A stretch of DNA of 22,047 nucleotides from a virus. The notes under the pieces were generated by a model. That model did not search any database, was not told the origin of the DNA, and saw only the letters and a program-made list of their open reading frames with translations. The stretch lies in the IMG/VR virus record IMGVR_UViG_3300035162_003131, positions 1-22,047 of that record; one strand, given 5' to 3'. Below, piece after piece: positions 1,935 to 19,331 of this stretch; position 1 is the stretch's first letter; every line of letters begins with the position of its first letter. A program made the position numbers and the translations under genes.

Positions 1935-1956
1935 TTAATTGATTTTTAAGATAATG

Positions 1957-2787
1957 TCAAGAAGGTGGGGTTTCCGCCTCTTGTGCTTGCTTGGCAGCAC
2001 TGTTTTCAGTAATTCTGCCAAGATAAGGATCATAGTTCATATAGTCTACAATGTCAATGTTGGCACCGTTTTGAGCCCAGAAGTTAGAAAGAGCATTAAA
2101 GTTTCCTTGATGAAAGACTCCAATATGTTCTGGATGAATAGATGATCCCAATTCCGTCTTATAGATTAAGAGTGGAATTGAATAAGTATTACCTGAATTA
2201 TAAATCAAATCATCAGCAACAGCGCGTGGTTTACAACCATTATCCAGTTTATACTTATCCTTTCTACAATGTAAACGGATCAATTTTTCTGCGTGATGAC
2301 GATTAATTAGATAACATGCAGTAGAGAAATCATTAACAAACCTCTTATGAAGTTTGACATGAATATCTCCAGTGCAGATGATTGCAATTTGAACAACATC
2401 CCAATCATATGGAACATGTGCATAAAAGTCTTTCCAAGAAAAGTTCCAGTACTTAACTAAGTCAAGGTTGCAATCATCTTCCATTATTATAGCATAAGGG
2501 CTATCAGATGTGGCAAGCCAATGTTTAATTGCTTTAAGATGACTAGTAGTACAACCAATCTCACCACCAGACATGTTATTAGGATATGTCCCAGTAAGAA
2601 TATTACTTAGGTCATCCTCTCTGCCATCATATGCAGAGATGCGTTCATAGTTTTCAACTTCCCAGTAGTCAAATTGATCCTCCATATACTGCTGTCTTTC
2701 TGGTTGCCCATCAAGATTGAGATAGTAGATAGGGCCAATTCCCTTTAACTTACATGCTGCTTTGTTTTTATCCTGCAATTCTTTCAT
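1957..2787 (-). CDS. Glycosyltransferase family 25-like (276 aa)
   Basis: The opening IYYLNLDGQPERQQYMEDQF, the central GEIGCTTSHLKAIKHW (about residues 75-90) and AIIMEDDCNL (about residues 98-109) are the hallmarks of LPS-biosynthesis glycosyltransferases of family GT25. The Glu-Asp-Asp binds the metal-nucleotide sugar donor. Members add galactose or similar sugars to LPS, or to hydroxylysine in eukaryotes. The protein is soluble with no signal peptide. It is the last gene of the long operon, its ATG overlapping the stop of the dehydrogenase gene. A hairpin with late promoter follows it, but no clear T-run terminator. The family call is strong. Donor and acceptor are unknown. Confidence 0.88.
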   Translation of the reverse strand: MKELQDKNKAACKLKGIGPIYYLNLDGQPERQQYMEDQFDYWEVENYERISAYDGREDDLSNILTGTYPNNMSGGEIGCTTSHLKAIKHWLATSDSPYAIIMEDDCNLDLVKYWNFSWKDFYAHVPYDWDVVQIAIICTGDIHVKLHKRFVNDFSTACYLINRHHAEKLIRLHCRKDKYKLDNGCKPRAVADDLIYNSGNTYSIPLLIYKTELGSSIHPEHIGVFHQGNFNALSNFWAQNGANIDIVDYMNYDPYLGRITENSAAKQAQEAETPPS

Positions 2788-17838: not shown

Positions 17839-17991
17839 CTTGAAAGGTCTTGCCATGCACGCCACTTGCTCTTTAACCAGAAGCAAGAAACTGGACGGTA
17901 GTAACTCCCACCCGCACCACTTTGTTTTATCTAAACAAAGAAACTCAAAGATTACTAAACTTAGCAGGCCATTGCGACTTAAGTATAGCAA
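17830..17991 (-). other. GC-rich spacer with a weak 53-codon frame
   Basis: The spacer between the 68-aa gene and the operon promoter is visibly more GC-rich than its surroundings. It holds two hairpins: CTTTGTTT with AAACAAAG (17920-17940) and CTTGC-TCT with AGA-GCAAG (17865-17887, one bulged base). A minus-strand frame from TTG at 17991 stays open for 53 codons to a TGA at 17832-17830 and ends VKEQVACMARPFKGG, but it has no ATG until 8 codons before the stop and overlaps the 68-aa gene. It may be a small RNA or 3' UTR element. A decayed or out-of-frame coding piece is also possible. Confidence 0.25.
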
Positions 17992-18736: not shown

Positions 18737-18810
18737 TGCTGGTTGTGGGAATTGAACCCACCTTCGCAGAATTATGAGTTCTGAGCATTCTACCAGATTG
18801 CTAAACCAGC
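18737..18810 (-). tRNA. tRNA with CAU anticodon, probably elongator Met
   Basis: A full cloverleaf on the minus strand: acceptor GCTGGTT/AACCAGC (7 perfect pairs), short D stem GCA/TGC with GG in its loop, anticodon stem CAGAA/TTCTG with loop CTCATAA, T arm GTGGG/CCCAC with TTCAATT, discriminator A. No CCA is encoded. CAU could also be the Ile2 type that needs lysidine. The 1-72 pair G-C argues against initiator Met. Confidence 0.9.
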
Positions 18811-19032: not shown

Positions 19033-19203
19033 CTACTGAGCTTCGTTATTGTTCTCAGTGTATATGCGTATGAGTTCCTCATCCGCTGGCATCATTATAG
19101 CACGGTTTCGTCCGTTTGTAATCCCTATACTCTCTCCATCTTCCACTCTAGAAACTAACTCTTCCCAGTTCTCTTGCCAGTGTTCCACTGAATAAAATTT
19201 CAT
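19033..19203 (-). CDS. Phd/YefM-type antitoxin-like protein (56 aa)
   Basis: MKFYSVEHWQENWEELVSRV followed by EDGESIGITNGRNRAIMMPA is the N-terminal DNA-binding and dimerisation fold of Phd/YefM antitoxins. The landmarks are Ser-Val-x-x-x-x-x-N, then Gly-Glu-x-x-x-I-T-N-x-x-x-x-x-A-x-x-M-P-A. The last 15 residues are an acidic helix-like tail. There the toxin-binding part is usually longer, and 56 residues are fewer than the usual 70-90. No toxin gene lies beside it. It may repress its own promoter, neutralise a host toxin (as an anti-defence factor), or work as a plain regulator. It has a perfect promoter and a highly structured leader whose last hairpin hides the ATG, so translation is probably controlled. 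The family is fairly clear. The biological role is inference. Confidence 0.8.
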   Translation of the reverse strand: MKFYSVEHWQENWEELVSRVEDGESIGITNGRNRAIMMPADEELIRIYTENNNEAQ

Positions 19204-19296
19204 AGTTGCATTATGTATAATGAAATTTTGTGGTAGATTCCTATCGCCGCTACTCCTGAACCTACCAAAGGGGAGTACCGCAGTTGATCTCTCAAC
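19194..19296 (-). ncRNA. Structured mRNA leader, riboswitch candidate
   Basis: The predicted transcript starts near 19296. In order come three elements. (1) A hairpin GTTGA-GAGA-TCAAC with GNRA loop (19296-19283). (2) An H-type pseudoknot: TACTCC (19277-19272) with GGAGTA (19256-19251), interlocked with GGTAGGTTC (19266-19258) and GAATCTACC (19240-19232), with loops of 5, 1 and 10 bases. (3) A 10-pair stem AAAATTTCAT (19229-19220)/ATGAAATTTT (19203-19194) that contains the start codon. Aptamer plus start-masking hairpin is riboswitch architecture. The class may be glutamine-II-like or new. Confidence 0.6.
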
Positions 19297-19302
19297 CTTT
19301 AA

Positions 19303-19331
19303 ATTATACTACTCAATATGTCCGTTGTCAA
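19303..19331 (-). promoter_or_regulatory. Perfect-consensus sigma70 promoter
   Basis: TTGACA (19331-19326) and TATAAT (19308-19303) on the minus strand, 17 bases apart, lie across the 3' end of the 105-aa gene. The expected start point, about 7 bases after the -10, falls at the base where the GNRA hairpin of the leader begins, which supports both calls. Confidence 0.88.

Follow-up and report, generated by a model that had tools for sequence, protein, structure and literature searches.

The window, i.e. the entire stretch of 22,047 nucleotides analysed here (IMG/VR virus record IMGVR_UViG_3300035162_003131), carries on its minus strand a leader RNA unit at 19297-19232, which is composed of a 5'-terminal hairpin (P0) and an H-type pseudoknot and has homologues across cyanophages. 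A 28-nt AU-rich spacer separates the pseudoknot from a gene of 56 codons (19203-19033), the product of which matches the profile PHROG 375 'Phd-like antitoxin' (E=6.5e-8 over 50 residues) and gave no match in a Pfam search. An earlier note on this DNA, made from the sequence alone, had proposed a perfect sigma70 promoter at 19331-19303, and TTGACA (19331-19326), a 17-nt spacer, and TATAAT (19308-19303) are indeed found there. The P0 hairpin, GGUUGA-GAGA-UCAACU with a GNRA loop (19297-19282), is flush with the predicted transcription start, as had also been noticed.

The pseudoknot spans 19277-19232 and has loops of 5, 1, and 10 nt when read from the sequence. The first helix (S1) is formed by UACUCC (19277-19272) and GGAGUA (19256-19251), and the second helix (S2), of nine pairs, by GGUAGGUUC (19266-19258) and GAAUCUACC (19240-19232). 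This is the pseudoknot that the earlier note had drawn, and all of the six pairs it assigned to S1 are present, but the helix is longer by two pairs, G19279-C19249 and C19280-G19248, lying beyond an invariant G.G mismatch (19278/19250), and with this extension S1 occupies 19280-19248. In a 61-row alignment of homologues, loop L1, CCUU(U) at 19271-19267, has an invariant CCUU and a length that tracks the length of S2. The segment between the 3' strands of S1 and S2 (19250-19241), G-N-G-G-C-N-A-Y-A-G, is near-invariant in the same alignment and among 306 instances, and holds the outer S1 pairs together with loop L3 proper (19247-19241). The leader folds better than shuffled sequences with a z-score of -2.3 in a nested-only calculation, which is blind to the pseudoknot. 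The locus might well encode a cyanophage RNA of compact build, about 65-75 nt long, for which both the start and the 3' end are predicted.

Covariation of the pseudoknot and its promoter

A BLAST search with the leader found matches in 63 phage records, nearly all of them cyanophages, where the RNA adjoins different genes, and pattern scans of IMG/VR provided many further instances. A structural filter kept 144 instances, 122 of which are distinct in sequence, and later scans yielded 306 distinct instances. The pseudoknot was aligned for 61 distinct homologues, giving 1002 scored pair cells over both helices. Standard pairs occupy 1002 of the 1002 cells (100%, compared with 82% for shuffled and at most 49% for slid partners), a percentage that is inflated by the filter, which demanded paired stems. 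The compensatory changes are not produced by this filter: two-sided changes occur in 13 of the 17 pairs, and the covariation score is 0.545, versus 0.198 after shuffling and no more than 0.073 for slid partners. Aligning homologous leaders, as the earlier note had recommended, reveals such changes in both pseudoknot stems, namely in seven of the eight S1 pairs and six of the nine S2 pairs, with every cell of either helix paired. The G19279-C19249 pair of the S1 extension, for example, is GC in 53 sequences and UA in 8. The same compensatory changes, judged by eye, are seen in homologues that were first found by BLAST alone (L081-L089). Because of the pairing, the two-sided changes, and the covariation score relative to the shuffled and slid controls, we consider the pseudoknot to be far beyond chance.

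The promoter and the P0 hairpin are connected with similar regularity. A -10 box is recognisable in 109 distinct homologues, and in 103 of them the 5' arm of P0 starts 5-7 nt past it; the P0 arms covary, with 22 distinct arm pairs among these 109. A P0 stem of 5 bp or more, flush with the -10 box, was likewise found in 103 of the 109, compared with a mean of 45 when the arms were swapped between sequences. In a set of 300 distinct homologues, a -10 box with at least 5/6 matches is present in 266 (27% in shuffled sequence) and is accompanied by a -35 box of at least 5/6 matches in 205 of these 266; P0 is flush in 241 versus 83 with swapped arms. The junction between promoter and P0 is fixed irrespective of the downstream feature, and by these comparisons the RNA and its promoter form one unit. 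In many copies from Prochlorococcus phages, a T run resembling that of an intrinsic terminator lies just upstream of the promoter (49 copies have a T run). At four loci (L171, L205, L142, and L153), the -35 box TTGAC is at the same time the loop of an intrinsic-terminator hairpin upstream of the element, as in GGGATC-TTGAC-GATCCC-TTTTTTT, where upstream termination overlaps the new promoter.

About 22 nucleotides are invariant in the 61-row alignment, most of which lie in the loops and the junction of this small pseudoknot: CUGC-G, the CCUU of loop 1, the UU-AA pairs of S2, a lone linker A, and G-GGC-A-AG between the 3' strands. This pattern suggests a major-groove triplex in S2 with loop contacts to S1, and the invariant core probably forms a triplex. 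Such invariant positions are also a feature of the SAM-II, preQ1, and guanidine-III aptamers (PMC6698751), and they would suit a metabolite riboswitch of a new class, in which the pseudoknot, of triplex type, would control the RNA downstream of it through a small bound ligand. The genomic neighbours described below make such a riboswitch unlikely.

Comparison with known RNA families

No family of Rfam 15 matches the RNA, also under lenient cut-offs, when the window and the homologues are compared with its covariance models, which agrees with one of two options left by the earlier note, that of a new class. The other option, a diverged glutamine-II (Downstream-peptide) riboswitch, was rejected on the covariance models together with the differing strand order. 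The covariance search that had been suggested, with the Downstream-peptide (RF01704) and glnA (RF01739) models, gave no match at the gathering score nor at E<=10. In glutamine-II, the pseudoknot helix comes first, followed by the inner hairpin P1, and P2 closes 3' of the pseudoknot helix, i.e. the GUUC/GAAC helix is crossed by one that closes 3' of it (PMC6698751). In the cyanophage RNA, the strand order supported by covariation is S1a-S2a-S1b-S2b without an inner hairpin, and the partner strand of the crossing helix lies 5' instead of 3'. Both are small pseudoknot RNAs of picocyanobacteria in which GUUCA and GGAAC pair with each other. Within the order UUCA/GGAGUAG/AGGAA, in which a likeness had formerly been seen, GGAGUAG is not conserved in the cyanophage RNA, where it is a covarying stem strand. 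The gene context differs too: instead of nitrogen-metabolism genes or short peptides, the cyanophage RNA mostly precedes tRNA-Arg or tRNA-Pro and unrelated genes.

The wcaG (RF01761) and manA (RF01745) RNAs are likewise structured RNAs of T4-like cyanophages found in the same neighbourhoods (window 17851-17948; L084 287-484), but they have distinct covariance models and have been described as cis-regulatory candidates leading particular classes of metabolic genes. In the window, the wcaG RNA (17851-17948, minus strand, 85.5 bits) precedes a sugar epimerase gene; wcaG RNAs recur near the pseudoknot RNA at L112, L113, L208, and L210, and two stand in tandem at L166. Phage T4 produces two small, stable RNAs of unknown role, RNAs C and D, which are made together with the tRNAs of its tRNA operon. 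We found no homology to them, and the cyanophage RNA differs in that it occurs also away from tRNAs. A self-cleaving ribozyme was considered unlikely because the RNA begins at the transcription start and leaves nothing upstream to cleave. The motif was not described in the literature searched, which was mostly without subscription journals and preprints, and an earlier listing is possible. On these comparisons, the RNA family is new, while the type of fold and the idea of small phage RNAs are already known.

Genomic neighbours and distribution

The feature following the RNA varies between phages. According to ARAGORN, a tRNA gene starts 1-5 nt after the RNA in 85 of the 144 instances (68 tRNA-Arg(UCU) and 17 tRNA-Pro(UGG)), a Phd-like gene follows in 13, and a new promoter comes after the RNA in 14 by a hand count. 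The remainder lie at a contig edge or before assorted genes, including those for purM, gp32, DUF6561, a weakly HAD-like protein, and others without known function. The 306 distinct instances comprise 138 near the start of a coding sequence, 112 before a tRNA, 22 before the next promoter, 25 others, and 9 truncated ones. In phage S-SKS1, the RNA is followed by the promoter of the next gene, with about 3.7 kb to the closest tRNA. Where a downstream feature was called, it shares the strand of the RNA, which says little because phage gene blocks are mostly unidirectional. Since most downstream genes have no other obvious promoter, the RNA is also their leader, a point against reading it as a separate product.

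This arrangement leaves little to a riboswitch. Some copies do lead purM or other metabolic genes, but the downstream products share no pathway, no expression platform fits where a tRNA starts 1-5 nt after the RNA, and no terminator follows. Nor does the RNA have relatives in Rfam, and the start-codon stem seen in the window is not conserved. For the free-standing forms, no clear terminator closing the RNA was found; at L216, L217, L210, L219, and L147, a hairpin of 6-7 bp (GUGCCAG-N8-CUGGCAC type) comes directly after the RNA, ahead of the promoter that follows, and is possibly a terminator or the 3' boundary of the free-standing form.

The neighbours also bear on the purpose that the earlier note had given to the leader, control of the antitoxin-like gene. 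In the window, the ATG of this gene lies in a 10-pair stem formed by AAAAUUUCAU (19229-19220) and AUGAAAUUUU (19203-19194), and the computed probability of an unpaired AUG is 0.02. The masking stem is therefore present as had been claimed, but it is kept in close relatives only: L004 has a strong stem (0.03), L024 and L007 a weaker one, and L001, L005, and L010 none (0.44-0.95); in L025, the stem is similar and the second codon altered. By this comparison, the start-codon stem is restricted to the window and a small set of close relatives. A leader dedicated to the Phd-like gene, switching its translation via the pseudoknot and the ATG stem, would account for the co-occurrence of both structures in the window and L004. 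It is nevertheless very improbable, as the RNA is present at 7 of the 75 Phd-like loci scanned (one of the seven is cut by the contig end), the 13 Phd-like genes stand against 144 instances, and most homologues precede tRNAs or unrelated genes. With RNA at so few Phd-like loci and no conservation of the stem, we ruled out a conserved translational switch, and we regard the gene as a neighbour rather than a constant part of the system. In the window itself, the RNA would also form the 5' UTR of the antitoxin gene, the ATG of which lies within a lineage-specific hairpin. Downstream of this gene, at 19030-18800 on the minus strand, are two tRNA-like sequences, apparently degenerate or unusual, which the Rfam tRNA model did not report at the gathering score; a tRNA at 18737-18810 was reported, and ARAGORN places the start of a tRNA-Ile(UAU) 207 nt past the RNA.

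Each of nine complete phage records bearing the element contains exactly one copy. Among 20 IMG/VR contigs, some have only marginal hits, probably due to chance, or none; the others have one clear copy, and there is no clear second copy except in G006 (IMG/VR 2619619257_000003; L105, L314); this copy sits in a perfect 5,756-bp inverted repeat, and we set it aside as probably an amplification or assembly artefact. The RNA occurs in the cultured phages P-SSM2, S-SM2, S-SKS1, Bellamy, and ACG-2014f, and the scans indicate hundreds of carriers among the viruses of marine cyanobacteria, each normally with one copy. The element was not found in nine other T4-like cyanophages, seven of which carry 5-24 tRNAs. 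A general leader of tRNA operons was rejected on this basis: S-PM2 (24 tRNAs), S-RSM4 (12), S-BM3 (11), and S-TIM5, all within 10-24 tRNAs, lack the element, and P-SSM2 shows the opposite, having the element and one distant tRNA. A host origin was rejected as well. A strict pattern, which would overlook diverged host copies, was run over the genomes of 84,980 species (GTDB-based) and retrieved a single contig, NZVE01000057.1 (L304), which is filed under a Rhodobacteraceae MAG and is by its genes a cyanophage fragment, apparently misbinned; there, the RNA precedes a tRNA-Arg-like gene. As far as searched, the family appears to be virus-only.

Occurrence in viruses alone, together with the predicted early expression, would fit counter-defence. 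The antitoxins of the ToxI type are small pseudoknot RNAs, and the cyanophage RNA might be a decoy of such a type III antitoxin that neutralises an abortive-infection toxin of the host. The report of an abiF sRNA in cyanophage S-CREM1 (PMC9964418) also speaks for this. Yet the RNA matches no Rfam family, antitoxin RNAs included, is not tandemly repeated, and came with no toxin gene or host copy in our searches; we consider a decoy very unlikely.

Possible modes of action

The comparisons establish the fold, the spacing between promoter and RNA, the single copy per genome in the tested records, and the changing neighbours. The weights that we attach to the readings are a judgement from sequence comparison. 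The main rival to action in trans is a cis-acting module at the transcript start that works on whatever follows. It might resemble the put RNAs, binding the elongating host RNA polymerase and suppressing pausing or termination, or it might be cap-like, with the structure shielding the transcript from 5'-end-dependent decay. The HK022 putRNA has about 70 nt, starts within a few nucleotides of the early transcript start, forms a triplex, and binds the zinc domain of the polymerase beta' subunit (PMC9378689). The cyanophage RNA parallels it in size, in its likely triplex, in its indifference to downstream genes, and in its location, as P0 lies 5-7 nt past the -10 box and hence at the 5' end of a promoter-proximal transcript. 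That the RNA directly adjoins a strong promoter and precedes both unrelated genes and tRNAs, which are not translated, fits such a module. The fold, on the other hand, is a hairpin plus an H-type pseudoknot instead of two stem-loops, and no sequence relation was established. HK022 has two copies, putL and putR, heading fixed early operons, whereas the cyanophage RNA has one copy per genome in the tested records and heads an operon that differs from one phage to another. For some copies, a further promoter comes within tens of nucleotides, and the main tRNA clusters at other sites of these genomes lack the element, as do those of other phages. Taken together, a cis-acting module, put-like or cap-like, is possible, though clearly less probable than action in trans.

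We favour, with a probability of roughly one half, an independent phage RNA that is sealed at both ends, acts in trans, and is often co-transcribed with tRNAs or mRNAs. The shifting neighbours, the single copy per genome, and the absence of space for an expression platform ahead of a tRNA make a cis switch hard to defend. The single copy, its own promoter, the sealed 5' end, a 3' end that RNase P would fix ahead of tRNAs, and the free-standing form in S-SKS1-like phages fit better with the RNA itself being the product, which it probably is. A promoter of its own and a fixed unit independent of the neighbours are indeed what the comparison finds, as for trans-acting small RNAs. The RNA would be transcribed from its own strong host-type promoter, and P0 would seal the 5' end. 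The 3' end would be released by RNase P where a tRNA follows and by other processing where an mRNA follows. The RNA would then act in trans early in infection. As its conserved unpaired stretches do not exceed a few nucleotides, its partner would most likely be a protein of the host or phage and not an antisense target. A more detailed picture, to which we give somewhat less than even odds, is an undescribed, virus-only family of structured RNAs that are expressed early from one dedicated promoter per genome, are mobile, often accompany tRNA genes, and act in trans on the host machinery, where the polymerase, a ribonuclease, or a defence protein could be the target.

Few non-coding RNAs are known from T4-like cyanophages, which rank among the commonest marine viruses, and most of these RNAs are presumed to be cis switches. 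The RNA described here is strongly supported by covariation, has no entry in Rfam, and is present in cultured phages amenable to infection experiments. If it acts in trans, it could provide a direct handle on the takeover of picocyanobacteria by cyanophages; a put-like action would make it a case of antitermination by RNA alone beyond the lambdoid phages.

A second conserved-looking block, GAGGAGAUGGAUGUGCCUC...GAAAGAACUAACAUCC, follows the element directly or after a short spacer at L149 (locus 1954-2024, minus strand) and is also found at L425, L428, L458, L505, and L517. An Rfam search with this block gave no match; it contains a hairpin and a possible crossing pairing, GGAUGU/ACAUCC.
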